A DNA stretch of 64,000 nucleotides from Litorihabitans aurantiacus (GTDB lineage Bacteria; Actinomycetota; Actinomycetes; Actinomycetales; Beutenbergiaceae), in contig NZ_BSUM01000001.1 in NCBI RefSeq assembly GCF_030161595.1, positions 744,001 through 808,000 of the forward strand, given 5' to 3'. Under the pieces are notes generated by a model. The model made no database searches. It was not told the DNA's origin and saw only the letters and a program-made list of their open reading frames with translations. Each line of letters begins with the position of its first letter. Positions within the stretch are counted from its first letter, which is position 1. Position numbers and translations under genes: made by a program. Shown piece by piece: positions 40,021-58,404 of the stretch.

Positions 40021-40072
40021 CACACCCAGAAGCGCGCGCCAAGATCACCCCAAGAGGGCACCGACGCTTGCC

Positions 40073-40292
40073 GAGACGATCCCCGACCCCAGGCGAGAGG
40101 ATCGCGGACCCTCGCCGAGCGGATTGCCGACCCTCCCCGAGAGGATCGCGGACACTCGCCGAGAGGATTGCCGACCCTCCCCGAGAGGATCGCGGACCCT
40201 GGCCGAGAGGATCCCGGACCCTTGGCGAGAGTATCCCGGACCCTCCGCGGGGAGATCGCTGGCACCTGTCGAGAAGATTGCCGATCTGCACT
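40073..40292 (+). repeat. 22-nt tandem array, left arm (about ten units)
   Basis: Units of exactly 22 nt start at 40073 and every 22 nt to 40271. The consensus is GAGAGGATTGCCGACCCTCCCC, alternating with a GAGAGGATCGCGGACCCTSGCC variant. The last two units are diverged. All six frames stay open because 22 nt is read three ways, giving false ORFs with repeats such as ERIADPPRED. A 62-nt unique centre separates it from the inverted right arm. The stretch 39971-40687 otherwise holds only the rrn terminator and the leader of the next gene. Confidence 0.92.
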
Positions 40293-40354: not shown

Positions 40355-40618
40355 CGGAGGCGTCGCCAATTCTCTCCGCGAGGATCTGCAGTGTTCTGGG
40401 GGAGCGTCGGGAGTGCTTCCGGAGCGCGTCGCCAATCCTCTCCGCGAGGTTCGGCAATCCTCTCGGGGAGGGTCGGCAATCCTCTCGGGGAGGGTCGGCA
40501 ATCCTCTCGGCGAGTGTCCGCGATCCTCTCGGGGAGGGTCGGCGATCCTCTCGGGGAGGGTCGGCAATCCTCTCGGGGAGGGTCGGCAATCCTCTCGCGG
40601 AGGGTCCACAAAGCTCTC
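40355..40618 (-). repeat. 22-nt tandem array, right arm (about twelve units, inverted)
   Basis: The same 22-nt unit in the opposite orientation, read on the + strand as GGGGAGGGTCGGCAATCCTC plus TC. Clean units start at 40443, 40465, 40487, 40509, 40531, 40553, 40575 and 40597; the four units at 40355-40442 are diverged. Each unit also contains a tiny internal stem (CCTC...GAGG). The two arms could pair into a hairpin of more than 200 bp. Confidence 0.92.
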
Positions 40619-40687
40619 GCGAAGGGTTGGGCGGGCGGGGGTGGGGCCTGCTGGCTAGGGTGGGTGGTACCGACCGAGAGGGCATCG

Positions 40688-41545
40688 ATGCTGCGTGTGA
40701 CCGTGAGTGGGTCAGGTGCACCCCGGGTGGTGCTGGGGCCGGGAGAGACGCTGCTGATCGGTCGTGCGCCGGACCAGGCGCTCCCCGAGCGGGACGCCAC
40801 CGAGCAGCTCCGGACGACCGCCCTGGCTCTTCCTCGTGTCGCGGGCCACGTGTCGCGGCTCCTGGGCGAGGTCGCCGTCGGCGAGGAGGTCGTGCGGCTG
40901 CGCTGGCGGGGGAGCACAGGCGCCCAGCTCTCCAGCCTCTTCGACGCGCCTGGCGGAGCACGACGAGTCACGCTGTCGGACGGGATGGTCGCGCTCCTGG
41001 ACGAGGGCGACAACCAGCTCCTCCTCCTCCAGGGCCGCCAGCAGCCCGACGGTACGTTCACCGACCTCCTCGTCTCCATCGACGTCGAGCTCGTCAGCAC
41101 GCCTGACGTCCGGACCCCGTGGGTGCCGCTCCCCGATCCGGAGTCCGCACCGACCACGGAGGCACCTCGCCTCGAGCCGTGGTCCCGCGAGTGGTACGTG
41201 GCCCTCGCCCTGGCGGAGCCGTGGCTCAGCGGTGAGGACGACTACCCGCGCCCGGCGTCCAACCGCGAAATCTACGAGCGCATCCTGGCCTGGCGGGGAC
41301 ACGCGTGGAACCTCGAGCGTGCCCAGCGGGTGGACGACGCCATCCGCGTCGTCGCCCGCATGGCGTTCGGCATCGCGGACGACCCCTTCACCCAGGGCCA
41401 GGGACGCGTGCAGAACGTGCGCTTCGCCGTCGGGCGCCGCTCGGCCGAGGTGCAGCTCGTGACCGCGAAGGACCTCGCCGCCGTCCTGAGCGCCCAGGCG
41501 CGGGGGACGGGGCTGCGCCCGGCCGAGGACCCCGCCATCACCTGA
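40688..41545 (+). CDS. FHA-like protein of the secretion-like cluster
   Basis: 285 residues from the ATG at 40688. The N-terminal 110 residues fit a degenerate forkhead-associated fold: VVLGPGETLLIGRAPDQALP, LALPRVAGHVSRLLGEV, VTLSDGMVALLDEGDNQLLL. The C-terminal half is helical, with ASNREIYERILAWRGHAWNL and ARMAFGIADDPFTQGQGRVQ, and resembles a winged-helix-type tail. No membrane segment. FHA proteins bind phosphothreonine; a Ser/Thr kinase is encoded at the other end of the cluster (56395-58404), which suggests a pair. A strong terminator follows, so it is a separate unit. Confidence 0.7.
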   Translation: MLRVTVSGSGAPRVVLGPGETLLIGRAPDQALPERDATEQLRTTALALPRVAGHVSRLLGEVAVGEEVVRLRWRGSTGAQLSSLFDAPGGARRVTLSDGMVALLDEGDNQLLLLQGRQQPDGTFTDLLVSIDVELVSTPDVRTPWVPLPDPESAPTTEAPRLEPWSREWYVALALAEPWLSGEDDYPRPASNREIYERILAWRGHAWNLERAQRVDDAIRVVARMAFGIADDPFTQGQGRVQNVRFAVGRRSAEVQLVTAKDLAAVLSAQARGTGLRPAEDPAIT

Positions 41546-41575
41546 CGCACCGCCCGCCTCCCACTCCACACCCCA

Positions 41576-41609
41576 CGCCCTCCCGAGCGCTCCGGCGCAC
41601 GGGAGGGCG
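41576..41609 (+). terminator. Hairpin after the FHA-like gene
   Basis: CGCCCTCCCG and CGGGAGGGCG form a perfect 10-bp stem, 31 nt after the stop. Confidence 0.8.
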
Positions 41610-41693
41610 TCGTCGTGCTGCCCGAACGTTCCGCGACGACGCCCTGACCTCGCCCCCGAGCCCCCGGATCGGCCTCCCAGCCACCCACGGGGC

Positions 41694-41747
41694 GGAACCT
41701 TCCACCCCCGCCGAGGTGGTCGCGCGCGCGCCCCGTCCCTAGCGTCG
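41694..41747 (+). promoter_or_regulatory. Shared promoter motif, copy 1 (before WXG100 gene 1)
   Basis: GGAACCTTCCACCCCCG (41694), then CCTAGCGTCG (41738), 44 nt from start to start. TAGCGT fits a -10 hexamer (TANNNT). The ATG of the WXG100 gene is 34 nt further. The same pair occurs at 42060 and 44288. Confidence 0.65.
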
Positions 41748-41781
41748 TCAGCACCAGTCACCGACGTCGAGAGGCAGCGCC

Positions 41782-42057
41782 ATGTACGACAGGAACACCT
41801 TCTACGGGATCGACCCCGAGTACTCCCGCAACGCCTCACGAGGCATGGAGCAGGGCGCCGGGGACCTCGGCAGCCTCGTGGGCTCCATCTCCGCGATGCT
41901 CGACTCCATCACCTGGGAGGGGGCCGGCGCGAAGCGCTTCCTCGGCGACTGGAACGGCGCCCTGCGCCCGGAGCTCCAGGCCGTCACCCAGTCGCTGACA
42001 GAGTCCGCGCACGAGCTGCGCCGCCGCGCCGAGATGCAGGAGCAGGCCAGCAGCTAG
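41782..42057 (+). CDS. WXG100 family protein
   Basis: 91 residues, the standard size of WXG100 proteins. Helix-turn-helix with the turn ITWEGAGAKRFLGDWNGALR (Trp-Glu-Gly for WxG) at mid-length, preceded by LGSLVGSISAMLDS and followed by QAVTQSLTESAHELRRRAEM. Such proteins are substrates or partners of type VII secretion. Neighbours 42234 and 43912 are of the same kind. The protein ends QEQASS, close to the ending of the second one (QERASS). Confidence 0.88.
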   Translation: MYDRNTFYGIDPEYSRNASRGMEQGAGDLGSLVGSISAMLDSITWEGAGAKRFLGDWNGALRPELQAVTQSLTESAHELRRRAEMQEQASS

Positions 42058-42059
42058 GC

Positions 42060-42114
42060 GGAACGTTCCACCCCCGACGGGGGTGCGGACGGCGCACCGG
42101 CCGGCCTAGCGTCG
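42060..42114 (+). promoter_or_regulatory. Shared promoter motif, copy 2
   Basis: GGAACGTTCCACCCCCG (42060; the first ten bases are a perfect palindrome), then CCTAGCGTCG (42105), 45 nt apart. It starts at the last base before the preceding stop region and lies 120 nt before the ATG at 42234. Confidence 0.65.
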
Positions 42115-42233
42115 ACGCCACACCCCAGCGGCAGGCTCCCCAGCCGGCGCCGCGGAGAGCACCACCCGGGCCCGCCCGGCACAGCGATCACCAGCACACC
42201 AACCATCACGACACGAACGAGAGGAGGCGGGAG

Positions 42234-43761
42234 ATGTCCTTCCAGGGAGCCGACGTCAGCGCACTCGACAAGATCGCCACCACCTGCCAGGAGGGGGCCG
42301 ACTTCGCGCAGCAGGTCGTCGTCGCCCTCAAGGTCGTCGTCGCCGCGCTCAAGGCGATGTCCTGGACGGGGTGGGCCGCGGCGTACGCGGCCTACCTCGA
42401 GGCCACGGTCATCCCGTGGGTCCAGGCGACCGGCCGCTACCTCGAGAACGCGGCACGCATGCTGTCGCTCGTCTCGCAGATCCAGAAGTCCACCAGCGAG
42501 GACTCGCCCACCGTCGTCATCCCGAAGGGCGGCTACACCCCGGTGCAGCTGCCCGCAGGCACCGCGACGAACCCGCCGAAGCTCTCCACGCCCGACGTCC
42601 GCATCACCATCACCGTGGCGGGCGGCGGCGCCGAGGGGGCCGGGGCGACCGTCTCCACCCCGGGCGCCATCGGCGCCGGGTCCGCCGCGGGCGGAGGTTC
42701 GGCCGGTGGCGGCGCGGGGGTCGCCTCCCCGACGACGCCGTCCGTCAGTGGTGCGGGCGCGACGTCGTCGACGGCGAGCGACGGCTCCACCTCCATCGGC
42801 GGGTCGATCGCGCAGGCGGGCGCCGCGATCTCCGCGATCGGCAAGGGGATCACCGGCATCGGCGACGGCGTGTCCCAGATCGGCGCCGGCATCGATCAGA
42901 TCCGGGGTGGGATCGAGCAGCTGACCGGCGGCTCGAGCGCCGCGGGTGCAGGCGGCTCGGGTGCGGGCCTGCCCGCTCTCGGCGCGGGCGGCGCGGCGAT
43001 CGGCGCCGGCAGCCTGGGCTCGCTCGGCCTCGGCAGCGGCGGCACCGGGTCGACGTCCGTCGGCGGCGTCGGCAGCGTGGGGGTGTCGGCCTGCCCGGTC
43101 TCACCGGCGGTTCCGGCCCGGCCTCGGGCGCGGACGTCGGATCGGCGTTCCAGATCGCCCCGGGTGCCGGCAGCGTCGGCTCGGGCGGCCTGGCCTGCGC
43201 GCCCGGCTCCTCGTCCGGCGGGGCGAGCCTGCCCGGCACGACGGCGGGCACCGGCTCGGGCGGCGGGCTCGACCTGGGCGGGGCGGCGGGTTCGTCCGGT
43301 TCCGTCACGCCGACCCCGATCGCGCCGGCCAGCACGTCGGGTGAGACCGGGGCAGCCTCGGGAGGATCCTCCGGGGGTGCGGCCGCGCCCGGCGGTACCT
43401 CGGGTGCGGGCACGGGCGGCGGCTCGACCGGTTCCGGCGGCGGATCGCCGGCCGGTGCTGGTGCCCCCGGGGCGGCACCAGCGGTCGGCGCGGGCGATGC
43501 CGCCGATGCAGCGCACGCTGCGCCCGCCCCGGTCAGCGCCTCGGCGACCTCCGCGACGCCGTCGTCCCTCGGCACCACGATCGACCCGCCCGTCACCGCG
43601 ACGCTCTCCACGGGCTCCCTCGCCGAGAGCGGGGAGGACTCCCGGCGGCGGCGATGGCCGCACCGCTGGGCCTCGCCGGGCTCGGGGCCGCCGGCCTCGG
43701 GGCGCTGCGCGGCCGCGCCCGCCGGGCCGACGAGGGGGAGCTCGCACCCGACGAGAACTGA
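42234..43761 (+). CDS. Large WXG-like protein with glycine-rich region and hydrophobic C-terminus; two apparent frameshifts
   Basis: About 509 residues. The N-terminal 90 residues are WXG100-like: FQGADVSALDKIATTCQEGA, AMSWTGWAAAYAAYLEATVI (Trp-Thr-Gly), RYLENAARMLSLVSQIQKST. A long Gly/Ala/Ser-rich region follows (IGKGITGIGDGVSQIGAGID then runs of GGS/GAG), and the C-terminus reads APLGLAGLGAAGLGALRGRA followed by RRADEGELAPDEN. Frame breaks: GGGGG at 43079-43083 and CCC at 43641-43643; one base added at each gives a continuous protein ending at TGA 43759-43761. It could be a secreted substrate with a repetitive passenger, or a membrane-tethered cluster component. RBS GGAGGCGGGAG precedes the ATG. 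Confidence 0.72.
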
Positions 43762-43911
43762 CCGGCACCCCCACGCGATCCGGCACCACTCCAGCACCAC
43801 CCCAGCAGCACCCGAACCATCAGAAGAACCGGCACCACCTGATCGACCGCCGACCGGCAGCCGACCACACCTCACCGCCACCCTCGTGGCACCGACGAAA
43901 GGACCACTCTC

Positions 43912-44181
43912 ATGAGCACCACCGTCTACGGCATGGACATCAACGCGGCCCGCGATCTCGTCCGGGTGATGACGACCGACGCCGACACGATCACGCAGCT
44001 CACCGCCCGCCTCACCCAGCAGCTCGAGGCCACCCCGTGGCAGGGCCCGGACTCGCAGCGCTTCCGCGGCGACTGGCAGGGCCAGTACGTGCCGGCCCTC
44101 AACAGCGTCGTCCAGGCGCTGCAGGAGAACGCGCAGATCCTCGCGGCCCAGGCCGACGACCAGGAGCGCGCCTCCAGCTGA
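43912..44181 (+). CDS. WXG100 family protein
   Basis: 89 residues. MSTTVYGMDINAARDLVRVM, then the turn ATPWQGPDSQRFRGDWQGQY (Trp-Gln-Gly) and VVQALQENAQILAAQADDQE. RBS GAAAGGA lies 8 nt before the ATG. There is no copy of the shared promoter motif directly upstream, so it is probably co-transcribed with the 42234 gene. It may form a heterodimer with the 41782 product. Confidence 0.9.
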   Translation: MSTTVYGMDINAARDLVRVMTTDADTITQLTARLTQQLEATPWQGPDSQRFRGDWQGQYVPALNSVVQALQENAQILAAQADDQERASS

Positions 44182-44210
44182 CGCCCAGCCCGGGCCCTGC
44201 CCGGGTGCCC

Positions 44211-44251
44211 GACGACGGCGGCGGTGACCGGGGAGGTCACCGTCGTCGTCG
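44211..44251 (+). terminator. Long hairpin after the WXG genes
   Basis: GACGACGGCGGCGGTGACC pairs with GGTCACCGTCGTCGTCGTC (one mismatch). A smaller hairpin CCCGGGC-CCT-GCCCGGG lies just before it. Confidence 0.75.
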
Positions 44252-44287
44252 TCGCACGTCCCGCCCGAAGCGCCCGGCAGACGCCCC

Positions 44288-44341
44288 GGAAGGTTCCACC
44301 CCCGTCCGCGTGGACGCGCGCGCGGCCCCTCCCTAGCGTCG
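44288..44341 (+). promoter_or_regulatory. Shared promoter motif, copy 3 (before the ATPase gene)
   Basis: GGAAGGTTCCACCCCCG (44288), then CCTAGCGTCG (44332), 44 nt apart; the ATG is about 34 nt further, the same geometry as copy 1. Confidence 0.65.
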
Positions 44342-44375
44342 GGGTGGTCAGGGACGAGGACCGAAGGAGTGCCGC

Positions 44376-47300
44376 ATGTGGCGACTGAGCGTGGTGCCGA
44401 GCACCGAGAGCGCGCTGGAGGCCGTCGACGTCGTGGTCGACGCCGCACCGCACGGGCGGGTCGCCGACCTGGCCGCCAGCCTGGGTGACCACCTCGCCGG
44501 CCCCGGGTCGCGCGTGCTCCTCGCGCCCGTCACCGACGGGCGGCCCTGGCCCGCGCAGCAGCGGCTGCTCGACTCGCCGCTGCGCGACGGCGGCCTGCTG
44601 CACGTGGCCTCTGTCCCGAGCGACTGGCTCACCCGTCCGCAGGCGCACCGGCGCCCCCGCGCGATCCTCCGCGTCGTCGACGGCCCCGAGGCGGGCCGCG
44701 AGGTCGAGCTGCACGGCGACGTCGTGACGATCGGACGCGCGGCGGGCGTCGACGTCCGTCTCACCGACCCGCTCGTGAGCCGGACGCACGCGCGCCTCGT
44801 GCTCGCGGCGACCCCGTCCGTCGTCGACCTCGGCTCCGCGCACGGGACGCGCGTGGCCGGTCGCGAGGTCCAGGCGGCGCAGCCGCTGGCGTGGGGCGAG
44901 ACCATCGAGCTCGGCGGCACCCGCCTCACGCTGCGCGACGTGCGCGACGGCGGCCGCGCCACGACGTCGGGCGTCACGGGCGCCGGCGACGGCGCCGCGG
45001 ACCGCGAGCAGGGCGTGCTGCGGACGCCGCGGTTCGGCACGGGCGTCGTCGAGACGGAGCTCGACCTGCCGGCCCCGCCGGCGTCGGTGCGCAAGACCCC
45101 GTTCCCGTGGCCGATGATGCTGATGCCGGTCCTGATCGGCGGGGGCATGCTCGCGATGAGCCGCAGCCCGATGTCGCTCATCTTCATGATCGGGTTCCCG
45201 CTCATGATGGCGATGACGAACCTCGTGCAGCGCCGGCAGGCCCGCAAGGAGTTCGAGGCCGAGCGCGACCTGTGGCGCGGCGACGTGCGCGAGGTCCTCG
45301 CCACCCTCGACGACTCGGCCGCCACCCAGCGCGCCAACGCGTTCGACGACGAGCCCGACCTCGACGCCGTCGTCGTCCGCGCCCGCACGCGCCACCACCG
45401 CCTGTGGACGCGGCAGCAGGACGACGCCGACTTCCTCACCGTCCGCTCGGGGCTGGGGGAGCGGCCCGCCCTGGTGACCGCCAAGAAGCCGAGCGGCGGC
45501 GACCGCGGCCTGCGCGCCGAGGCCACCCGGGCGCTCGCGACCCGCGGCACGCTGCCCGACCTCCCGGTGCCGCTCGACCTCGGCGCCCCGCTCAGCGCGG
45601 TCACCGGTCCGGTCGACGACGTCGACGCCTGGGTCCGCGCCGCGATCGTCCGGCTCGCCGTCACGCACTCGCCCACCGACCTCGCCATCACCGCCGTCCT
45701 CGGCCACGACCGGGGCGCGCTCGAGACGTGGCTGCGGTGGCTGCCGCACGTGAGCTCGGCCGGCCCCGCGCCCGTCGCGATCGGCGCTGCCGCGGGGCAG
45801 GCGCTGCTCGAGCAGCTCACCCTGGCGACCGGCACCGGCCACACGCTCTGCCTCGTGGACGCGGGTGCGGGTCTGACGCGCCGCCACGTCGAGGCCGTCG
45901 CGCAGCACGCCGCCCGCGCGGCGCAGGAGGGCGGCCCCGGCCTGCACCTGCTGTGGCTCGGCGAGCGGACGGAAGAGGTCCCGGCGGCCACCGCGCGGCT
46001 GGTGGACCTGCGGGTCGGCTCGCTCGAGCACGCCCGCCGCGGCGGTGTCGAGCGCATCGACGCGCCCGAGCGGCTCGACCTCGCCACCACGTGGCACACG
46101 GCCCGCTCGCTCGCCGGCTACCGCGACGAGGCCGCCGTCGGCGCGGCCGAGGCGCTGCTCCCGGCCATGGTCCGCCTGCCGGACCTCACGGGCTGCGGGA
46201 GCGACGACGTCGAGCAGGTGCTCGAGCGCTGGTCCACCAGCCGCGGGCTGCGCGCCCAGCTGGGCGCCGGCACCGACGGCGCCGTGACGATCGACCTGCG
46301 CGAGGACGGCCCGCACGGTCTCGTGGCCGGCACCACCGGCGCGGGCAAGAGCGAGCTGCTGCAGTCCCTCATCTCCTCGCTGGCCGTCAACAACCCGCCG
46401 AGCCGAATCACCTTCCTGCTCGTGGACTACAAGGGCGGCGCGGCGTTCCGCGAGTGCGCGCAGCTCCCGCACACCGTCGGCTACATCACCGACCTGACCC
46501 CGGCCCTCGTCCAGCGTGCGCTCGTCTCGCTGCACGCCGAGCTGACCGCGCGTGAGCACCTCCTGGAGCGCTACGGTGCCAAGGACCTCCCCGACCTCGA
46601 GCGCAAGCACCCCGAGGCCGCCCCGCCGAGCATGCTGATCTGCGTCGACGAGTTCGCGGCGCTGCTGGCCGAGGTCCCCGACTTCGTCGACGGCATGGTC
46701 TCGATCGCGCAGCGGGGCCGCTCGCTCGGGATGCACATGCTGCTCGCGACCCAGCGCCCCGCCGGCGTCGTCACGCCCCAGATCAAGGCCAACACCGATC
46801 TGCGCATCGCGCTGCGCGTGGCCTCCCCGGACGACTCCACCGACGTCATCGACGCCCCCGACGCCGCACAGCTCTCGCGCCGCAACCCCGGCCGGGCCTG
46901 GCTGCGCCGGACCGGCCACGGCACGCGCGAGCTCGTCCAGGTCTCCTGGGTCGGTGCGCGCGAGATCCGCCGCGAGGCGGCCGCACCGGTCGAGGTGCGC
47001 CCCTTCGACGCGCGCGGCGGCGCGGACGCGGCCGCGGCGCTCGCGGCGGGCGACGCCGACCGCCTCCACCCCCGCACCGACCTCGAGCGGTTGGTCGAGA
47101 CCATCACGACGGCGCACCTGCGCACCGGAGTCGCCCCGCCGAGCAGGCCGTGGCTGCCCCAGCTGGCCGACGTGCTGCCGCTCGCCGTCGCCGGGCCCGG
47201 ACGCCTCCTCGTCGGCGCCGACGCGACGCAGGCCGCGCTGGTCGACGGCGCGGGCGCGTCGCAGGCGCGGACGGTCGAGCCGGGCGGGGGCCAGGTCGTG

Positions 47301-48856
47301 CTCGGGATGATCGACGACCCCGCGGCGCAGACGCAGGAGCCGTGGGTGCTCGACCTCACCCGGTCCGGGCACCTGCTCGTGCTCGGGTCCTCCGGCGCCG
47401 GCAAGACCGAGCTGCTGCGCACGCTCGCCGTCGCCGTGACCGCCGGTGGCGACGCCGCGGCTCCGCTCGTCTACGGGCTCGACTGCGGCGGGGGCGGCCT
47501 GGCGGTGCTCGGGCTGCTGCCGTCCGTGGGCGCCGTCGTCGTCGAGGCGCAGCGCGAGCGGATGCAGCGCCTCGTGCGGATGCTGCACCGCACCGTCACC
47601 GAGCGGAACGCCGCGATGGCATCGCGGGGGTGGCCGACCTCGCGGCGCTCGCGGCCACGGGGGTCGACGTGCCGCGCGTGCACGTGCTGATCGACAACCT
47701 GCCGGCACTGCTGGAGTCCTTCGAGGGCGGCGGCTCGATGCGCCGCCAGCACGCCGACATGCTCGTGGCGATCCTCCAGGAGGGGCGCCGCGCGGGGGTC
47801 CACGTGAGCGCGACGGCGCCGCAGCGCACCGGCGTGCCGGCCCCGGTCGCGGCGGCGTTCGGGCAGCGCCTCGTGATGCGCATGACGATCCCGGACGACT
47901 ACATGATGCTCGGCGTGCCCGCGGGGGTGCTCGACGCCGACAGCCCCGCGGGCCGTGCACTGCTGGGGAAGCACGAGGTCCAGGTGGCCACGATCGGCGG
48001 CGCCGGCACCCCGCTCCAGGCCGAGCGGCTCGCCGCGATCGCGGCGCAGGTCGCGGGTCGCTATCCCGACGGCGCCACCACCGTCCCCGCGATGCCCGGC
48101 CGGCTGCCGCAGGAGGCGGCACCGCAGCCGGTGCGCGACGAGGTGACGGTTGGCGTCGAGGAGGACATGGTCGCCCCGGTGACGCTCGCCCTGCTGGACG
48201 GGCCCGTGCTCGTCACCGGACGCACCCGGACGGGGCGCAGCACCCACCTGCTCGCGCTCGCGCAGCTCGCGGCCCGGGCTCAGCAGCCCGTGGCGGAGGT
48301 GGTCCTCGCGGGGCCGCGGGCTGCCGCGACGGCGTCGACGCTCGGCGGCGGGCTGCCGCTGACGGTGCTGGCGAGCCCCGAGGAGGTGCTCGCCTGGCTC
48401 GAGGGACCCGGGGCGAGCGCGCCCGACGGCGACACCCTCGCGGCGCCGTCGGGCTCCGCGCCGTGGCGCCTGGTCCTCGCGGACGACGTGCACGAGTGGG
48501 AGCGTGCCTGGGAGGCCGCGGGCGCCGAGCGACGCGCCGTCGAGGCGCTCGCGGCGTGGGCCCCGCGGGCCGCAGGCCTGGGTACCGCGCTCGTGGTCGC
48601 GACGGACGCCGACGACGCCCGCACGCGCCAGCACATCCCCGGTCTGGTCTCCGTGGTGCGGCGCTCGCGGCGCGGTGTGCTGCTGAGCCCGGAGATGGGT
48701 GACGGCACGCTGCTCGGCGCCCAGGTGCCGATGGCGAGCCACGAGGCGCTCACCGGACCCGGCCGCGGGCTCCTCGTCGCCGGCGGAAAGTTCCACCTCG
48801 TGCAGACCACCGCGGCGTCGATCACCGTGGAACAATCGGCGGCAGGACGGGGCTGA
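44376..48856 (+). CDS. FHA-FtsK/SpoIIIE-type ATPase of type VII secretion (EccC/EssC-like); apparent frameshift
   Basis: About 1493 residues. Order: ubiquitin-like/N-terminal domain; FHA domain near residues 95-190 (VELHGDVVTIGRAAGVDVRL, LVSRTHARLVL); two membrane segments near 242-280 (FPWPMMLMPVLIGGGMLAMS); first ATPase with Walker A GTTGAGKSELLQSLISSLAV (about 652) and Walker B CVDEFAALLAEV; second ATPase VLGSSGAGKTELLRTLAVAV (about 1004); third, degenerate nucleotide site LVTGRTRTGRSTHLLALAQL. The frame breaks near 47618-47635; the other frame carries on with GVADLAALAATGVDVPRVHV. The FHA-containing N-terminus is more like Firmicutes EssC than mycobacterial EccC. It is the predicted motor of the cluster. 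Confidence 0.87.
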
Positions 48857-48922
48857 GCGGCCCTATCGGGCACCGGACGGGGCCCGATCGACATGACGGC
48901 ACGACCGACGGAAGGGGTCGGC

Positions 48923-51900
48923 ATGCGCAGGTGGCGGAGGCCGAACGGCGAACGTGGAGCCGTCGAGGTCGGGGTCGCGATGGCCGGAGCCCTCCTCGTG
49001 GTGGGTGCGATCGTCGGCAACGGCGTCGCGAGCACCCTCGTGGACATGTCCGACGGCACCACCTGGCTGCCCGAGGACGACCAGGGGACGGTCGTGCAGA
49101 TCAACCCCGCCACCGGTGAGCCCGAGCGGCGGCTGCAGATCGCGGCGGGCGAGGCCGAGCTCGAGCTCGCGCAGCGCGACGGCCGCCTGATCGTCACCGA
49201 CCGCCTGACCGGCGAGATCACCGCTGTCGACCTCAGCACGCTGCTCGCCAGCGGGCAGCGGACCGCGGCCGACCCGGCCGACACCCGCGTGCTCGTCGGG
49301 GGTGGTCACGTCGCGCTCGTCGAGCTGGGTGAGGGCCTCGTCCGCGCCGTCAGCCCCCTCACCCTCGCCGACATCGGCACCCCGTACCGGACCGACGCGC
49401 TCGCCGACGCCACGATCGACGACGCCGGGCGCGTCTGGGTGATCGGGCAGGACGGCCGGCTCCAGGAGCTCGAGTACCGCACCGAGGCGCGCGAGCACGC
49501 GGTGCGCACCGACGTCCCCGTCGAGGCGGCGGGCCCGGCCTCGCGCCTGGTGCCGCACGCGCGCGGCGTGACGGTGTTCGCACCGGACCGCGGCGCCGTC
49601 GTGCAGATCGGGTCCGGCAGCGACGTGAGCGCGGGGGTGCCGCAGCTCGAGGGAGCCCTCGAGGTCGCGCCGCGCTCGCCGTCGGACCTCGTCCCGGCCT
49701 CGATCCCCGAGCGCGGGCGCGTGGTGGTGCTGAGCGGGCGCGACGTGCTCAGCGTCGACGTCGCCGCGATCGGGTGCGAGCGGCCCGCGCAGCCGCAGAC
49801 GTTCTCGGGGCGGATCTACGTGCCGTGCACCGGCGCCGGCAAGGTCGTCGTGCTCAACTCCGACGGCAGCCGCGGCGCCGCCGACATCATCGTCCCGGGC
49901 GGCGGTGACCCGCGCCTGACGATCGACGAGGGTCGCCTGGTCGTGCACACGAAGGACCGCTCGGGCGGGTACGTGCTGGTCGACGGCGGTGGCACCACGC
50001 GCGTGGTCGAGCCCGAGCCGACGGCGGTCACGCCCGTCCCGGTGGATCGCCCCCTCCCGCCGCGACCGGCCCCGCCGCAGCCCCAGGTGCCCGGGGCGGG
50101 CGGTCCGACCGCGCCGCAGCCGCCCGTACCGACGACGGACGCGCCCGCGGCGCCGACCGACACCCCGACGGGTGCCCAGCCGCCCGAGGTGCCGGGCGTG
50201 CCGACGCCGCCGGTCCCCACGACGCCGCCCCCGGGTCTGCCGTCCGTGCCGGTGCCGACGGACCTGCCGACCGACGTCCCCACCGACGGCGGCACGGTCG
50301 TCCCGCCGACGACGGGCGGGCCCACCGACACCGGGACCGGCACCGGCCCCGTGCAGGAGTACGCACCGACGAACATCCGTGTCACCGCCGCGAACGACCC
50401 GGCGACGGCCCGCGTGACGTGGCAGGCCTCGGAGGTCCCGGCCGTGCGCTACCAGGTGACCGCGTCGGTGGGCACCGGGGCCGAGGTGGCGGCCACCGCG
50501 CCGCTCGAGTCGACGCTGACCGAGCTCGTGTGCGGCCGCGAGATCGAGGTGCGCGTGACGGCGGTGCACGTCCCGGCGGTGACGCAGCCCGTGACGCGCG
50601 AGACGACGTACACGCCGGAGTGTGCTCCCGGCTCGACGCCCCCGACCGAGGATCCGACGTCGCCGAGCCCCACCGAGACCACGCCGAGTCCGACCGAGAC
50701 CACGCCGAGTCCGACCGAGACGACGCCGAGCCCGACGGAGACGACGCCGAGTCCGACGGAGACGACGCCGAGCCCGACCGGGACGACCCCGGCTCCGACC
50801 CCAACGGCGGACCGCCCCACGGCGGCGACGGGCGTGTCCGCGACGGCGCGGCCGGACGGCACCGTCATCGTCACCTGGAACGCCGCGACGCGGGCGGATC
50901 GGTACAGCGTCCGACCCGCCGGGGGTGGGCAGCTGACCGATGCGGGTACGGCGACCAGCGCGACGGTGCCGGCGGCGGCCGGCAGCACCGTCGCGTACGA
51001 GGTGGTCTCGCACGTCGGCACGGAGACAGCGGTCTCCGCCGCCAGCGGTTCCGTGACCGTCCCTGCGCGCCCAGGTGCACCCGGGGTGGGGGTCACCGTC
51101 ACGCGGAACTCGCCGCAGCAGGTGGCGCTGTCGTTCGCGATCACGCCACCGGCCGATGGCGGTTCGCCGATCATCGACTACACCTTGAACTTCTCCGGCC
51201 CGTCGGTGACCCCGACCCAGGTCCCGCTCGGTGGCCAGACGACACACGCGGTGACGATCGACTGCAACGCCCAGGGGCTGTGCCGTGACGGCGGCACCGT
51301 CAGCGCGACGGTCACGGCCACGAACGCGGCGGGGGAGGGGGCGGCGGGTTCGGGCAGCGGCAGCCTCGCGGCCCTCCCGGTGCCGAGCGACAACGACGGT
51401 GTGCTGACTGGCCGCAACTCCACGGGCACCAACACGGTGACGGCGGCGGTCGACTACGCGCCCATCGCGAGCTGGGTCGAGACGCCCGGCACGTGCACCA
51501 CGGGCGGTCAGGTGATCGACTGCGCGACGCCGACGACGATCGCCGAGCAGCGAGGCGCCCGCAACGTCGGTGCGTGGGCGAGCGGCGAGGTGACCTTCAC
51601 CGGCAGCGGGTGGGCCGCGGGTATCACGGCCACCGTCTCCGGCTACGCCGACGCCCCGGGTGAGGCCTACTGCGAGCCGGGCGGGCCGTGCTACCAGATC
51701 GCGTCGCTGCCCCCGACAGAGGTCCAGGTCGTCCCCGTTCCGTGGACCGCACCACAGATCCCGCACCCGCCCGCCGTCGCGGCCGGCGTGCTGCTCCTCG
51801 GCACGGCCGGCGCCATGCGGCTGAAGCGTCGTCGCACGTCCCTCGCCGAGGCGACGGATACGTCCGATGCCGCCGCGACGACCGCCCCCACCACCTCTAC

Positions 51901-51931
51901 GACCCGCACCCCGTCCCCGGAGGACCGATGA
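48923..51931 (+). CDS. Large secreted/membrane-anchored protein with propeller-like region and fibronectin type III domains
   Basis: 1002 residues from the ATG at 48923, which follows GGAAGGGG; the frame is open 30 nt further up. Membrane segment at the N-terminus (VEVGVAMAGALLVVGAIVGN). Residues 35-370 show propeller-like repeats (GTVVQINPATGEPERRLQIA, DDAGRVWVIGQDGRLQELEY). A Pro/Thr linker follows, then fibronectin III-type domains around residues 480, 640 and 720 (APTNIRVTAANDPATARVTW, ATGVSATARPDGTVIVTWNA, SPQQVALSFAITPPADGGSP). TPSPTET is repeated six times between them. A C-terminal anchor (HPPAVAAGVLLLGTAGAMRL) and basic tail end the protein. It may be the surface component of the cluster. 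The stop overlaps the MoxR start. Confidence 0.82.
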   Translation: MRRWRRPNGERGAVEVGVAMAGALLVVGAIVGNGVASTLVDMSDGTTWLPEDDQGTVVQINPATGEPERRLQIAAGEAELELAQRDGRLIVTDRLTGEITAVDLSTLLASGQRTAADPADTRVLVGGGHVALVELGEGLVRAVSPLTLADIGTPYRTDALADATIDDAGRVWVIGQDGRLQELEYRTEAREHAVRTDVPVEAAGPASRLVPHARGVTVFAPDRGAVVQIGSGSDVSAGVPQLEGALEVAPRSPSDLVPASIPERGRVVVLSGRDVLSVDVAAIGCERPAQPQTFSGRIYVPCTGAGKVVVLNSDGSRGAADIIVPGGGDPRLTIDEGRLVVHTKDRSGGYVLVDGGGTTRVVEPEPTAVTPVPVDRPLPPRPAPPQPQVPGAGGPTAPQPPVPTTDAPAAPTDTPTGAQPPEVPGVPTPPVPTTPPPGLPSVPVPTDLPTDVPTDGGTVVPPTTGGPTDTGTGTGPVQEYAPTNIRVTAANDPATARVTWQASEVPAVRYQVTASVGTGAEVAATAPLESTLTELVCGREIEVRVTAVHVPAVTQPVTRETTYTPECAPGSTPPTEDPTSPSPTETTPSPTETTPSPTETTPSPTETTPSPTETTPSPTGTTPAPTPTADRPTAATGVSATARPDGTVIVTWNAATRADRYSVRPAGGGQLTDAGTATSATVPAAAGSTVAYEVVSHVGTETAVSAASGSVTVPARPGAPGVGVTVTRNSPQQVALSFAITPPADGGSPIIDYTLNFSGPSVTPTQVPLGGQTTHAVTIDCNAQGLCRDGGTVSATVTATNAAGEGAAGSGSGSLAALPVPSDNDGVLTGRNSTGTNTVTAAVDYAPIASWVETPGTCTTGGQVIDCATPTTIAEQRGARNVGAWASGEVTFTGSGWAAGITATVSGYADAPGEAYCEPGGPCYQIASLPPTEVQVVPVPWTAPQIPHPPAVAAGVLLLGTAGAMRLKRRRTSLAEATDTSDAAATTAPTTSTTRTPSPEDR

Positions 51932-52911
51932 CCACGCCCGCCACCGACGTCGCCCCCGCCCGGATCGCCGAGGTCCGCGTGCTGCACGACCGGATCGTCG
52001 ACGCCGTCGAGCAGGCGCTGCGGGGCAAGCGGCCCGTCGTCGAGCTCGCGATCGTCTCGCTCCTCGCGGGTGGGCACGTGCTGCTGGAGGACGTCCCGGG
52101 CACCGGTAAGACGACGCTCGCGCGCGCGGTCGCGGCCGCGCTCGGCGGGAGCTCGCGCCGCATCCAGTTCACCCCGGACCTGCTGCCCTCCGACGTCACC
52201 GGCACGTCCGTCTTCGAGCCGGGCACCGGTGAGATCACGTTCCGCGAGGGGCCGGTCTTCACGCACGTGCTGCTCGCCGACGAGATCAACCGCGCCGCCG
52301 CCAAGACGCAGTCGGCGCTGCTGGAGGTGATGGCCGAGCGCACGGTGACGACCGACGGGATCGGACGCCGCGTCCCCGACCCGTTCCTGGTCATCGCCAC
52401 CCAGAACCCCGTCGACCTCGACGGCACCTACCGCCTGCCCGAGGCGCAGCTCGACCGCTTCCTCGTCAAGGTCGAGATCGGCTACCCCGACGCCGAGCAC
52501 GAGATCGAGGTGCTGCGGCCCGGCAGCCGAGCCGGCTCCGTGGAGCACGTGCCCCAGGTGACGACGCCGGACGAGGTCGCCGCGGCCGCCGCCACCCTCC
52601 GCGGCGTCCACGTCGCCGAACCGATCCTCGGCTACGTGCGCGCCGTCGGCGCCGCCACCCGCGAGGACGCCCGGTTGCGGCTCGGCGCCTCGACACGCGG
52701 GCTGCGCGGGCTCGTGGGCGCCGCCCAGGTCTGGGCCGCGACGCAGGGCCGGCACTACGTCGTCCCCAGCGACGTGCAGCGGCTCGTGGTCCCCGTGCTC
52801 GGCCACCGCGTCATCCTGACGCGCGATGCCGTGCTCGCCGGGACGACCACGGAGCAGGTGCTGCTCGACGTGCTCGACCGCGTCGAGGTGCCGCGCCCCG
52901 GCGCGGCCTGA
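51928..52911 (+). CDS. MoxR family AAA+ ATPase
   Basis: 327 residues. Walker [21 protein letters not shown], Walker [21 protein letters not shown], and [20 protein letters not shown] (sensor 1) with EAQLDRFL; the C-terminal lid domain contains [20 protein letters not shown]. MoxR ATPases act as chaperones for proteins with von Willebrand-like or DUF58 partners. The ATG overlaps the stop of the fibronectin gene, and a DUF58 gene follows after 3 nt, the classical pair. Confidence 0.95.
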
Positions 52912-52914
52912 GCC

Positions 52915-54198
52915 GTGCCGCCGCTCGACCCCACCGGCGCGGCCGACGGGACCGCCACCGGCGCGGGGTCCGACACGGGCGCCGACACCCACGCCGACAC
53001 CCACGCCTGGGGACCGCCGCGCCTCACGGCCCGCGGCACCGCCGTCCTCGCCCTCGCGCTCGCCCTGCTCGCGGGTGGCCTGCTCGCCCGGTTCCCCTCC
53101 GTCGTCGCGCTCGGCACGGGTCTCGTGGTGCTGCTGGCGATCTCGCTCGCCGGCGTGCTCGCGCGCGTCCCGGTCGACGTCGAGCGCCGCACCAGCCTCA
53201 CGCGCGTGACGCGCCTGGCGGACTGCACGGCCGAGATCACGGTCACCAACCTCTCCTCGTGGGCCTCGCTCCGGCTCGAGGGCCTCGACCGCGTCGGTGA
53301 CGAGCTGCGGCCCGTCGCCCTGCCACGGCTCGCGCCGGGGGAGCGCGGGACCGGGCGGGAGGTCATCCCGACCGACCGGCGCGGCCGGGTCGTCTTCGGG
53401 CCGCTCCTCTTGCGCCGGTCCGGGGTCGCGGGCCTGGTGGTGCGCACCAGTCGGCACGGCGAGGCCACGAGCGTGCTCGTCGAGCCGCGCGTGCTCGACG
53501 CGCTCTCCCTCGCCCCCGGCCTGCGCCGCGGGCACACCGGGGCGCAGGAGCGCATCGAGCACGGCGGGACCGACCTCGTGGGCCTGCGCGAGTACATCGC
53601 GGGTGACGACCTGCGCCGCCTGCACTGGGCCACCAGCGCGCGCCGCGGTCAGCTCATGGTCCGGCAGGACGCCGACCCCGCCCTGCCCTTCCTCACCGTG
53701 CTGCTGGACGACCGCCTCGCGAGCTACGCCTCGCCCGCGGATCTCGAGGAGGCGGTCGACGTCGCCGCGAGCCTCCTGGCGACCGCCTCCGAGCGCGAGA
53801 GCCCGGGGCGGCTCGTGACCGCCGTCGGCGGCCTCGACCTGGACAACCCCGTCTCCCGCGTCGGCGACGGCGGCGCCGAGCTCGCCCGGGACGTCCGCGA
53901 GGCGCTCGCGCTCCTGCGCGGGGTCGGGAACGGCGACAGCGACGCCGACGACGCAGCAGGTGGCCCCGCCGACCTGCCCCTCACCACCGGCGCGCCCGAC
54001 GTGCTCGTCGTCGTCACCGGTGCCCAGGCCGACCTGGGCGTGCTGCTGCTCGAGGCCGCCGCCGCACCGACCGCGGTGATCGCCGTCGTCGACCCCGATC
54101 CGCGCGCGCTGGTCTCGGCCGTCCAGGGTGTGACGGTGCTGCGCGGCCCGCGCGCGGACGACCTCGTGCACGGGTGGCGGACGGCGGTGGCCCGGTGA
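52915..54198 (+). CDS. DUF58 domain protein
   Basis: 427 residues. Two membrane segments in the first 90 residues ([40 protein letters not shown]), then the DUF58 region with [20 protein letters not shown] and the signature [24 protein letters not shown]-like C-terminal part ([20 protein letters not shown]) ends the protein. GTG start at 52915, just after the MoxR stop. The next gene overlaps the stop (GTGA). Confidence 0.92.
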
Positions 54199-56371
54199 CG
54201 GCGTCGACGACGGCTCGCGGCACCCCCGCGCCTGGTGGGTGCCCGTCTGGTCCACGACGCTCCTGCTGCTCGGCTGCGTCCCGTTCGCGTCCGCCTACGC
54301 GTGGTGGGCGGTGCCGCTGGTGCTGGCCGGCGTCGTGCTCGCCGGTGTCGGCGTGGTCGTGCTCGGGTCGCTGCTGCGACTGGCGCGCTGGGTGGTCGCG
54401 GTCGCCGGTGTCGGCCTCCTCGCCGTCGTGACCTCCACGATGGCCAGCAGCGGTCTCGAGGCGGTGCCGGCCGGCGCCCGGTCGGTGGTGCCGCTCCTGG
54501 ACGCGCTGCCGCGGCTCCTGACCGCGCCGCGTCCCGCGCCGGCCGGGGTCGGGCTGCTCGCACCGACGGTGCTGCTCGTCGGGGTCGTGGCGCTGGCGGT
54601 CGCGCTCGCCGTCGTCCCGCGTCGCGGCCTGGCCCCGCGCCGGGCGGGTGTCGCCGGGCTGCTCGGCTCCGTGGTGCTGCAGGCCGCCGCGGCCGTGCTG
54701 GTGGCGGGCCAGGACGCGACCGCGGTCGTCGTCGCGATCCTCACGCTCGCCGTCGCCGGCCTCGGGTGGGTGCTGGGGGAGGCCCCCGCCCGCGCGCAGG
54801 ACGGACGGCGCCACGGCGTGGTGCTCCCGGGCGCGCTGGTCCTCGCGGCCGCGGGCACCGCCGTCGTCGCCCTGGCGGTGCCGACCGCCGGGGCGTTCGA
54901 GGCCCGCCGGTACGTGCCCCCGCCGGTGCTGCCGGCCGAGGCCGTGAACCCGGTGCCCGACGTGACGGGCTGGCTGCGGGGCGGCGAGACGACGCTGTTC
55001 GACGTCACGGCCCACGGCACCCCGCTCCCGCAGCGGCTCTCGCTCGCGGTGCTGCCGGACTTCGACGGGTCGACCTGGCGCCTCGCGGCGCGGCTGCGTG
55101 CCCCTGGCGTCGTGGACGAACCCGACCTGCCGGCCGGCACCCGCCGCGACGTCCTGGAGCTGAGCGTGCAGGTGCGCGAGCTCGGGACGGCGTGGCTGCC
55201 GAGCCTCGGCCACGTCGAGACGATCACGGGTGTCGCTCCGCTCGCGGACGTCGACACCGGCACGCTCGTGCTGGAGGGCGCCCGGACCGATGCGGAGCCG
55301 CCGAGCTACCGCGCCCGGGTCACCGTCGACGCCCCGCAGCCCGACCTGGCGGCGCGCGCCGGGGTCCCCGACGCCGCCAGGGCCGCCCGCTACCTCGAGG
55401 TTCCGCGCATCAGCGACGACCTGCGAGCCGAGGCCGCCGCCCTCACGGAGGGCGCGACGTCGCGGCTCGAGCAGGCGACGCTGCTCGCGGAGGGGGTGCG
55501 GGCGGGACGCACGCTGGAGGACGCCGCCGCCAGCGGCTCCTCCTACGGCCGGTTGGCGGAGTTCCTGTTCCTGCCCGAGGAGGAGGGTGGGCAGCGGGGG
55601 ACGCAGGAGCAGTTCGCGGGCGCCTTCGCCGTGCTCGGGCGCACGCTCGGGCTCCCCACCCGGCTCGTGGTCGGGTTCGAGGTGCCGGGAGCCGCGGAGG
55701 GTGCCGAGGCGGCGACCGTGAGCGGCGCCGACGCCGCGATCTGGGCCGAGGTGTACCTCGCGGAGGCGGGCTGGGTCGCGTTCGACCCGAGCCCCGACGC
55801 CTCGTCGGGTGACGGCTCCGGGGCCCAGCCGTCGCCGTCGCCGACCGGGGACCCCGGTCTCGACGGTGAGGAGAGCCCGGTGCCGAGCGAGCCCGAGACG
55901 CTGCGCGACGACGCGGCGCCGCAGGGCGGTGACGACGCCGCGAACGGGGGCGGCGGGGTGGCCGGGCTCGTCGCGTCGGTCGCGGGCGCGTCCCTCGCGG
56001 CGCTCGCCCTCGCGTCGGTGGCGCTGCGAGCCGTCCGACGGCGGCGGTGGCGCGCCGCGGGGGTGCGCGGCGCCTGGCAGCACGTCACCGACGCCGCGTG
56101 GCTCGCGGGCCTCGAGCAGCGACCGGGGCAGGACGCGCTCGCGACCGCCGAGCTGCTGGTCGGAGCCGGTGCGCCGGCGTCGGTCCGGGCGCTCGCACGC
56201 CGGGCGGAGGCCGCGGAGTTCGCGCCCTCGTCCCACGACGTCGACGGCGGGCAGTCGCCGTCCGGCGAGGACTGGCGCCTCGCGCGCCACACGTCCCGCG
56301 CCCTGCGCCGGACGCTCCCGTGGTTCCAGCGGCTGTGGTGGGGCGTCTCGCCGGCGGTGCTGCGGCGCTGA
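54195..56371 (+). CDS. Transglutaminase-like membrane protein without visible catalytic triad; apparent frameshift at the start
   Basis: About 725 residues. At least six membrane segments (SAYAWWAVPLVLAGVVLAGV and following) in the first 230 residues; an extracellular domain with TLFDVTAHGTPLPQRLSLAV; the transglutaminase-fold region near residue 468; a further membrane segment (GLVASVAGASLAALALASVA) and a cytoplasmic tail. The expected Cys (GxCxxFA) is replaced in RGTQEQFAGAFAVLGRTLGL and the expected His (HAWVEV) in ADAAIWAEVYLAEAGWVAFD. The GTG at 54195 overlaps the DUF58 stop; one base is missing near 54232, so the frame beginning [12 protein letters not shown] must shift into WWVPVWSTTLLL. 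Confidence 0.85.
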
Positions 56372-56394
56372 TCCGGGGGTGACGGGGGCGGGTC

Positions 56395-58404
56395 TCAGCG
56401 CTCTAGGCAGCGCTGCGCCGAGGCGCCCCGGTCCAGGGCGCCGTCGACCATGCCCAGCCCGACGACGGCGAAGCACACCCGCACCGACGGGTCCAGACCC
56501 TCGGCGAGGAAGCTGGTGGAACCGGCGGGAAGGAGCTCGTAGGCGAGGGCGGGGGAGCCCTCGACCTGGCTCACGACGATGACCTGCACCTCCTCGTCGG
56601 CCGGCGCGTTCCAGGTGATCTCGGCCGATGTGCCGCGATCGACCGCCGCGACACCGGTCGGGGCGAGGTCGGGGTTGCCGGTCTGCGCCTCCTGGAGGTC
56701 GGCGGGCAGGTCGCCGCCGAACTCCGGCACCGCCCCCTCCGTGGCGACCTGCCCCGATCCGGCCGGCGTCTCCCCGGGCTCGCCGCCCGTCCCGTCCGTG
56801 CCGGTCCCGCCCGACGTGTCGCCGCCGCCCGTGCTGGTCTGCTGCGTCGGCTCCTGGCCGGAACCGCCGCGCACCAGGTCGACGACGACGGGCCCGACGC
56901 CGATCGCCGCCCCCACGAGCAGAGCGCCTCCGAGGAACGCCGCGCCACGGCGCCAGGCGGTGGAACGGCCGCCCCCGTCGTGCTCGCCGCCGGTCGTGCC
57001 GCCGCGCCGGGACGCCCGGGACACCCCGACCAGCTCGTCCGGGTCGGAACCCCCGCCGGGCTCGATCGGGCCGCGCCCGGTCGCCTCGTCGGGAGCGAGT
57101 CCGGTCGCGTCGTCGGTGGCGGCAGGTGCGGCACCGGGACGCCGCTCGCCGCGGCCGAGGTGGCTGAGGGCCGAGCGCGCGAGGGGCGCGTCGGCGGCTG
57201 CGGGACGAGGGCCGTCGGCGGGGGTGGCGGGCAGTGTGGCGGGCGACCCGGGAGTCTCGGCCCCGGGGGCCACGAGCGACGGCCGCTCGCGCGTGACGTC
57301 GTCGGACGCGGGCTCCGCGGGTGCGGAGGGCGACGCCGACGACGCCGTCGACACCTCGCCGCGCGAGATCGCGTCGGGATCCCACCCGCGCGCCTCGGTC
57401 GGCACCGTTCGCAGGGCGGCGAGGACGTCGGCCGCGCCGGGCGGACGGCCGGCCGGGTCGGGCGCGAGGCACGCCGAGATGAGCGCGGCGAGCACCGGCG
57501 GGACGTCCTCGCGCGTGAGCGCGCGCCGACCACCGAGCCGAACCCGGCGAAGGTAGGCCAGGGCCGTGTCCTCGTCCGGGTCGTCCGCGGCGAACGGCGC
57601 CCGGCCGTCGAGCAGCGTGAAGAGGGTGGAGCCGAGCGACCACACGTCGTCGGCCGGGGTGGGGGACGCGCCGTCGAGCACCTGGGGCGAGGCGTGGCGG
57701 TAGCTGAACCGTTCGAGCGAGGCGGTGCGCCCGGCGTCGACGGTCCGGGCGATGCCGAAGTCGGCGAGCACGTACGAGGTCGGCAGCAGCAGGACGTTCT
57801 GCGGCTTGACGTCGCGGTGCAGCACGCCCTGGGCGTGGGCGTAGGCGAGCGCGTCGGCGATGGCGGTCCCGGCGGCGACCACCTCGGCGACGGGGAGCGG
57901 GCCGTGGTGCCGCAGCCGGTCGTGCAGGGACCCGAGGTCGTGGAAGTCCATGACGAGGCACGGGCGGCCGTCGGTGGTCTCGGGGGTGGCGAGCACCGTG
58001 ACGATGTGGGGGTGCGCCCGCCCGAGCCGCACGGTCAGGGCGACCTCGCGCTCGAAGCGCGCTCGCACGTCCGGCTCGGCGAGGTCGACGACCTTGATCG
58101 CGACCTCCCGGTCGACGGCCAGGTCGCGGGCGCGGAGCACGACGCCGTCGCCGCCGCGCGCCACCTCGACCAGGTCCGCGTACCCGGGAACGGAGATCCC
58201 CGTGTGGGAGACGCCCCGCCCCTGGTCGGAGTCGGCGGACGGGACGGTGGCGGGTGCGCCGTCCACGGGTCCGGCGGGCGCACCGGCACCGGCGGCACCG
58301 ACGCGCGCGTGGGCCCGCAGGGACCGGGGGTCGAGGTCGACGCCGACCGCCTCGGCGAGGTCGTCGCGCGGCGGGGGTGCCCAGGCCTCGTCGTCGTCCG
58401 CCAC
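56395..58404 (-). CDS. Membrane-bound Ser/Thr protein kinase
   Basis: 669 residues from the GTG at 58404, preceded by GGGAGGTG. Kinase domain at about residues 75-340 with the glycine loop [20 protein letters not shown], the lysine in [15 protein letters not shown], the catalytic loop [14 protein letters not shown] and [21 protein letters not shown] Pro/Ala/Asp-rich linker, one membrane segment ([20 protein letters not shown], about 487) and an extracellular tail with a fibronectin III-like domain ([20 protein letters not shown]) follow. It is convergent with the transglutaminase-like gene. The kinase is a natural partner of the FHA proteins. Confidence 0.92.

Follow-up and report, generated by a model that had tools for sequence, protein, structure and literature searches.

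A palindromic putative operator-promoter element upstream of type VII secretion genes in Litorihabitans aurantiacus and its relatives

The secretion cluster and its three element copies

The window analysed here, a 64,000-nt stretch of Litorihabitans aurantiacus (NZ_BSUM01000001.1, positions 744,001 to 808,000), harbors a cluster of type VII secretion system (T7SS) genes in which three units are each preceded by the same two-block element, i.e., a short palindrome followed at a nearly fixed distance by TAGCGT. Copy 1 is located in front of WXG100 gene 1, copy 2 in front of a glycine-rich WXG-like gene and WXG100 gene 2, and copy 3 in front of an FHA-EccC/EssC gene, downstream of which genes for a membrane protein, a MoxR ATPase, a DUF58 protein, and a TgpA-like transglutaminase follow in this order (Table 1). 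A sequence-only reading had placed the copies before three units of a secretion-like cluster, the type of which could now be specified, as an EccC/EssC-type FtsK/SpoIIIE ATPase with a PF01580 match above the cut-off lies adjacent to two WXG100 proteins, both under the curated TIGR03930 cut-off. The window EccC, a frame-broken copy, matched TIGR03928 with an E-value of 2.3e-130 and 436 bits, which is under the cut-off of 778, and the EccC of Serinibacter arcticus (locus L040) is 85% identical to it. In the window and in most other loci with enough flanking sequence, a gene for a 285-aa protein is found directly before WXG100 gene 1. Relatives of the Ser/Thr kinase that converges on the cluster stand at the matching cluster end in seven of eight other loci, two of those being checked with Pfam.

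At the sequence level, GGAANNTTCCACCCCCG was found as an exact match at 41694, 42060, and 44288 on the forward strand, with CCTAGCGTCG beginning 44, 45, and 44 nt after the starts of copies 1, 2, and 3, respectively, just as the sequence-only reading had described; the gaps between the palindrome end and TAGCGT are accordingly 36, 37, and 36 nt. The full element consists of GGCGGAAnnTTCCACCCC, then cTGG at +22, then CCTAGCGTC, with a palindrome-TAGCGT gap of 36 or 37 nt. The first ten bases form a palindrome that is perfect only in copy 2, also in line with that reading. Its statement that the sequence between the blocks is not conserved holds overall, with the exception of a GTGG at +22 that is kept in copies 1 and 3.

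Counts in the window revealed four occurrences of GGAANNTTCC versus 0.19 expected, a number reached in none of 100 shuffles. While CCTAGCGTCG matched exactly at just the three copies, allowing one mismatch resulted in 10 matches versus 11.1 expected, i.e., not above chance. A 17-mer search with up to three mismatches showed mild enrichment (six matches versus 2.07 expected; four shuffles reached six). In the whole genome of 3,845,079 bases, the 17-mer with at most one mismatch was present at the three window places only, with none in the reversed control; thus the genome-wide search, in which random occurrences inside genes would have spoken against a promoter motif, returned no other place. 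The two-block matrix described below scored the three copies, which belonged to its training set, as given in Table 1, with 5.3 bits for the next-best window place. The fourth palindrome of the window (48785) was rejected as an operator, since it lies inside the 3' part of EccC without a -10 at the proper distance and with a matrix score not exceeding that next-best value.

Table 1. Features of the T7SS locus (window coordinates)
Feature	Coordinates	Strand	Evidence
Candidate regulator, 285 aa	40688..41545	+	Alignment with 12 relatives; no Pfam/NCBIfam family
Operator copy 1, GGCGGAACCTTCCACCCC	41691..41708	+	Exact match; 49.3 bits including its -10
Putative -35 of copy 1, TGGTCG, 17 bp before -10	41717..41722	+	T at +23; promoter role putative
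Putative -10 of copy 1, TAGCGT	41740..41745	+	Conserved at 36/37 nt
WXG100 gene 1	41782..42057	+	PF06013 E 3.4e-5, TIGR03930 E 2e-6, both under curated cut-offs; operator GGAA 88 nt before ATG
Operator copy 2, GGCGGAACGTTCCACCCC, perfect ten-base palindrome	42057..42074	+	Exact match; 47.4 bits
Putative -10 of copy 2, TAGCGT, gap 37	42107..42112	+	Fixed-distance match
Glycine-rich WXG-like gene, end approximate	42234..43761	+	82.7% identical to L040 over 237 residues, frame lost thereafter
WXG100 gene 2, one unit with the glycine-rich gene	43912..44181	+	TIGR03930 E 4e-6, under cut-off
Operator copy 3, CCCGGAAGGTTCCACCCC	44285..44302	+	Exact match; 41.5 bits
Putative -35 of copy 3, TGGACG, 17 bp before -10	44311..44316	+	cTGG position
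Putative -10 of copy 3, TAGCGT, gap 36	44334..44339	+	Fixed-distance match
FHA-EccC/EssC ATPase gene, two reading frames, first 44376-47690	44376..48856	+	FtsK_SpoIIIE (PF01580) E 3.7e-45, FHA E 1.2e-10
Large membrane protein gene	48893..51931	+	No Pfam family in window protein; L041 relative has FN3, PF00041 E 6.9e-25
MoxR-type ATPase gene	51928..52911	+	AAA_3 E 7.7e-59
DUF58 gene	52915..54198	+	PF01882 E 1.2e-6
TgpA-like transglutaminase gene	54239..56371	+	Transglut_core E 1.1e-14, TgpA_N E 3.1e-10
Ser/Thr kinase gene, converging on cluster	56395..58404	-	Pkinase E 6.8e-38

Compared with the intact locus L040, the glycine-rich gene and the EccC gene (near 47.6 kb) displayed frame changes (42234-48856), which are either assembly errors or real breaks, and the match of the membrane protein gene to L040 likewise stops early. 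Between a 5S rRNA gene and the 285-aa gene, two 22-bp tandem arrays were noticed (40063-40245, 8.3 copies; 40356-40627, 12.3 copies), the units of which look like mutual reverse complements.

Architecture of the element

For a search across loci, 40 sites from 16 loci were picked by GGAAnnTTCCACCC plus TAnnnT to construct a weight matrix, so that the conservation of these letters is by construction; other columns were also favoured where sites were picked by score. Among the unfixed columns of the 40 training sites, C before GGAA (97%) and CC before the -10 (97% and 87%) stood out, together with the internal G, C, and G of the -10 and the following C (85-92%). Run over both strands of 35 loci (658 kb) with gaps of 30-43 allowed, the matrix resulted in 63 hits of at least 14 bits, nearly all of them before WXG100 gene 1, the glycine-rich gene, EccC, or long WXG-like genes. 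Four hits had no such gene called directly downstream: for L092:9620, an EccC start was located 98 nt downstream by the EccC search, for L083:9173 and L122:13032 the glycine-rich gene is expected downstream by comparison with L082, and L124:3000 (19.3 bits) is without explanation. Our own gene caller overlooked some genes or put them in the wrong place, namely the glycine-rich gene in L083 and L122, the EccC start in L092, and some long WXG genes. In total, 58 of the 63 hits, distributed over 27 loci, scored at least 25 bits at a gap of 36 (24 sites) or 37 (34 sites), and 18 of those 58, in 11 loci, lie outside the training loci.

These data also bear on the possibility that the copies arose by chance or by recent duplication of one promoter. 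Their position within only 2.6 kb would suit such an origin, but the blocks are separated by differing bases, further families and loci carry the element, and a matrix run on the reversed locus sequences (1.5 Mb, both strands) reached a top score of only 16.4 bits. This explanation is thus practically negligible, and the exclusion of a recent duplication by the sequence-only reading stands.

The cTGG, which is not part of the matrix, provided information on the spacing. With similar sites down-weighted, the T at +23 was present in 91% of the 58 sites when these were anchored on the palindrome, whereas no more than 59% was reached with the -10 as the anchor. The palindrome and cTGG therefore behave as a rigid unit, and the slack of one nucleotide falls between cTGG and TAGCGT, which matches the 17/18-bp spacer of -35 and -10 boxes. 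Since the bases between the palindrome and cTGG are not conserved across the 58 sites, the fixed length is not due to a fixed sequence, which would fit an activator contacting RNA polymerase near the -35. The layout agrees with a sigma-A-type promoter, with TAGCGT as a TAnnnT-type -10 and TGG from +23 located 17/18 bp upstream. Where a start was called, GGAA precedes it by exactly 88 nt at nine sites, including two window sites. A generic consensus promoter scan of 40600-44600 found no promoter, because the -35 is far from TTGACA. Overall, the sequence comparison fits an assignment of cTGG as the -35 box and TAGCGT as the -10 box, with the operator locked to the -35.

Promoters read by an alternative sigma factor of the extracytoplasmic function (ECF) type, with GGAAC as the -35 and CGTC as the -10, had to be considered as well, as both words are found in the element and WXG100 genes in mycobacteria are transcribed from SigM promoters of this kind. 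However, ECF promoters have about 16-18 nt between the two words, for which the three copies show a distance of about 44 nt, and it is cTGG instead that stands at the right distance. We therefore rejected this very improbable reading.

A further question is whether the palindrome might be the operator of a dedicated repressor, its spacing resulting from descent or from steric overlap with the polymerase. Short perfect or nearly perfect palindromes beside a promoter suit repressors too, and EspM, a mycobacterial T7SS regulator, is described as repressing whiB6 in the available part of its report (PMC7002343). Against this, the operator is situated upstream of the -35 and leaves the core promoter uncovered, and it has remained at a constant distance from the -35 despite changes in the intervening sequence; moreover, a weak -35 (TGG only) together with some -10 boxes without the first T suits a promoter that needs help. 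A repressor thus appears unlikely, and the regulator is probably an activator.

Relatives, putative cargo genes, and the reach of the element

Across at least four families of the class, the element stands in front of corresponding T7SS genes. All three genomes of the genus carried three copies. In the family, the two-block pattern was detected in 11 of 24 genomes, which are exactly the holders of a close EccC homolog (more than 1300 bits, versus at most 279 bits in the rest), and in the order in 14 of 396, including G342 with a lone match. Retrieval via EccC resulted in 16 loci, 14 of them with the element, namely those of Serinibacter, two Occultella, two Actinotalea, two Pseudactinotalea, a Georgenia metagenome-assembled genome, Microbacterium luticocti, three Cellulomonas, Xylanimonas, and Nakamurella. 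No site of at least 14 bits was found in L048 (a short contig), in L055 (distant EccC), or in L085-L088, four T7SS-like loci from a different genus of the family that have a more divergent EccC and lack the 285-aa protein. The class sample revealed full sites in a similar cluster in three further genomes of two other families, and four more site-bearing genomes were reached via the 285-aa protein. Class-wide, CGGAANNTTCCACCCC matched in 17 of 394 genomes. Seven of these genomes additionally encode the 285-aa protein, the match in one of them (G541) being outside the cluster with 6.0 bits; the ten remaining genomes had lone matches, nine below 17 bits and one of 25.2 bits.

Two of these lone matches (L067 and L069), the one of 25.2 bits and one of the nine below 17 bits, consist of the palindrome plus ACCCC lying antisense in 16S rRNA genes, so that the higher score arose by chance. 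In G541, a CGGAACCTTCCACCCC match with 6.0 bits (L120:7280, reverse strand) is located about 96 nt before the gene of a 905-aa protein with an N-terminus that is AAA-like by eye.

In the own genome, CGGAANNTTCC resulted in nine rows at eight places, i.e., the three copies, one inside EccC, three in repeats, and one intergenic. The repeat places are identical repeats inside a gene resembling a short-chain dehydrogenase by eye. The intergenic place, 143 kb from the cluster (C1 near 931 kb), is situated 60 nt before the ATG of a 336-aa protein (L147:1562-2572), with CTGG exactly at +22 of the operator. This protein displayed a WXG100-like N-terminus (TIGR03930 E 2e-4, under the cut-off; 45% identity over 87 residues to the second WXG100 protein of the window) and a VgrG3-like C-terminus (PF21277 E 1e-40), and is likely to be T7SS cargo.

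A palindrome search in 11 relatives was evaluated for all 52 places outside the core cluster in eight of them, with the places of G470, G657, and G588 left out; G588 revealed 64 rows for CGGAANNTTCC versus 33 in the reversed control, far above the other genomes. At twelve of these 52 places, the unit downstream carries a WXG domain, as called by our own hidden Markov model from 56 sequences, since Pfam and NCBIfam were weak or blank on several. Six of the twelve lie within 17 kb of the cluster and the remaining six on a different contig or at a distance of over 1 Mb. At four far places (L183, L207, L215, L221), the first gene encodes a protein of 167-172 aa and the WXG gene starts at its stop codon, which is perhaps a chaperone-cargo pair, though this is a guess. 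All seven non-core loci with CTGG at +22 belong to the twelve (hypergeometric P 5.9e-6).

Together with the place in the own genome and three extended-cluster places (two in L045, one in L046) that were selected for preceding WXG-like genes, these twelve form a set of 16 sites. The pattern nAnnnT at a gap of 36/37 was present in 16/16 of them versus 6/44 oriented sites at other places, and CTGG at +22 in ten. In six sites (L183, L200, L207, L215, L221, L147), the hexamer is followed after 7 nt by ATG, and in L183, L207, and L215 this ATG stands 59-60 nt after GGAA. The 7-nt distance from hexamer to ATG fits leaderless transcripts and marks the hexamer as the -10; together with the fixed spacing in the 58 sites, this supports the assignment of TAGCGT as the -10 box by the sequence-only reading.

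Candidate regulator and comparison with known systems

Sequence comparison established the element with its spacing, showed it to be nearly restricted to T7SS genes, and revealed its co-occurrence with the 285-aa protein. The 285-aa protein shares 56-91% identity with 12 relatives and is very conserved in its C-terminal half. In the order, it was found in 15 of 396 genomes, i.e., the 13 pattern-positive ones other than G342 plus G163, where the gene has one in-frame TAG and one 30.8-bit site remains before a WXG100 gene, and G358, which carries a fragment and no visible cluster. In the class, all nine genomes with the protein (of 394) have at least one site of at least 25 bits, and a search with the C-terminal half alone (E 0.01) resulted in eight of 355 genomes, all among those nine. 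AlphaFold2 predicted a helical C-terminus with fair confidence (pLDDT about 54-87) and an unreliable N-terminus. Structural neighbors of the C-terminus by VIA-align were VqmA (Z 5.7/5.5/4.5), Orc1 (4.1), and a Mn repressor (3.5); a human CST/polymerase-alpha chain was among them as well (3.7). Searches with the protein against PDB sequences, plasmids, and viruses returned nothing, and Foldseek with the whole model gave no E-value below 0.1. An FHA domain, suspected by eye from GR and SR residues, found no support: neither Pfam nor NCBIfam matched one, and hhalign against the FHA region of EccC gave a probability of 3%. Based on co-occurrence and position, the 285-aa protein is a plausible binder of the operator, with a chance somewhat short of even.

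A different reader is about equally conceivable, either a global factor or NB-ARC/TPR or LuxR-type regulators encoded beside some clusters. NB-ARC/TPR proteins are located among T7SS genes (L082:9693-14866, L083:1963-7285), with extra GGAAnnTTCC palindromes near the upstream ends, and a LuxR-type protein is present in L041 and L047. These genes are not common to the other loci examined, though, and the rarity of the palindrome in the own genome (eight places) argues against a global factor. A comparison of the 285-aa C-terminus with five LuxR-type ends by hhalign gave 0.1%.

We picture the mechanism as follows. GGCGGAAnnTTCCACCCC would be the operator of one dedicated DNA-binding regulator, phase-locked to a weak -35 (TGG from +23), with the -10 (TAGCGT) 17/18 bp further. 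The regulator, probably an activator, would touch RNA polymerase from about -54 and turn on the separate T7SS units as well as other WXG-domain units, the likely cargo. Its most likely identity would be the 285-aa protein, and the Ser/Thr kinase of the cluster may provide an input to it. That the sites form an operator/promoter regulon is almost certain. A dedicated operator served by an activator, with the binder left open, is a reading to which we lean; the narrow set of target genes supports the dedicated regulator, activator or repressor, that the sequence-only reading had suggested. Only tentatively would we go as far as a T7SS-wide promoter code common to several families, in which the 285-aa family reads the palindrome via a fixed polymerase contact and coordinates the machine with scattered, partly leaderless cargo, possibly gated by the kinase.

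Several observations weigh against the operator-activator mechanism. Regarding the promoter, the T of cTGG in copy 2 is shifted one base later, cTGG is missing in six of the 16 cargo sites, several of the 16 hexamers are without the first T of a -10 (e.g., GACGAT, CAGGAT), and the fixed spacing could partly reflect common descent. Only 13 loci showed a copy upstream of EccC, in each case with gap 36, and none was found there in four Cellulomonas/Xylanimonas loci (L049, L050, L052, L053) and the Actinotalea soli locus (L051), all with hits. Regarding the 285-aa protein, Pfam and NCBIfam gave no convincing match and no helix-turn-helix (HTH) family, Z scores of at most 5.7, including an unrelated chain at 3.7, are too low to prove a fold, and linkage to the cluster alone would yield the co-occurrence, so that the protein is a candidate only.

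Co-regulated genes and cargo of T7SS are hard to tell from sequence, while here a single short element flags the genes of the machine and also predicts distant cargo genes. If confirmed, it would offer a sequence-only route to T7SS cargo and a simple system for joint switching of machine and cargo; under the promoter-code reading, the cargo set of a genome could be read from the operator by sequence alone. A literature search by title and abstract start and by literal motif strings, with most subscription journals not covered, found no description of the operator. The new points are the spread of the operator over several families, its rigid arrangement with the -35, its presence before other WXG units, and the naming of a candidate regulator.

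Among known systems, EspM is a two-part regulator with an N-terminal FHA and a C-terminal HTH domain. It is encoded next to ESX-1 in mycobacteria and binds to the promoter region of whiB6, which it represses, as far as the available text of its reports goes (PMC7002343, PMC11005418). In both cases the regulator, here a candidate, is encoded beside the T7SS, and the binding of a promoter region and tuning of T7SS genes described for EspM would be shared as well. In contrast, the available text names no palindromic operator for EspM, whereas here the operator precedes the secretion genes themselves, and FHA and HTH belong to EspM, while Pfam and NCBIfam matched neither in the 285-aa protein. By analogy, the present system may work similarly to EspM.

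DegU is a response regulator with other roles, in which it differs from the present operator, nearly confined to T7SS-type genes. Its phosphorylation-dependent activation of the Ess T7SS of Bacillus subtilis is reported in the available part of PMC3701619.

Finally, the bifidobacterial PFNA cluster combines genes for a Ser/Thr kinase, an FN3 protein, an AAA ATPase, a DUF58 protein, and a transglutaminase, according to the available part of PMC8430577, which does not mention secretion genes or such an operator. The set at 48893-58404 of the window matches this composition, with FN3 found in the L041 relative only and not in the window protein, and links the PFNA type to a T7SS; the difference is that here the set follows EccC and WXG100 genes and has its kinase at the far end in the opposite direction.

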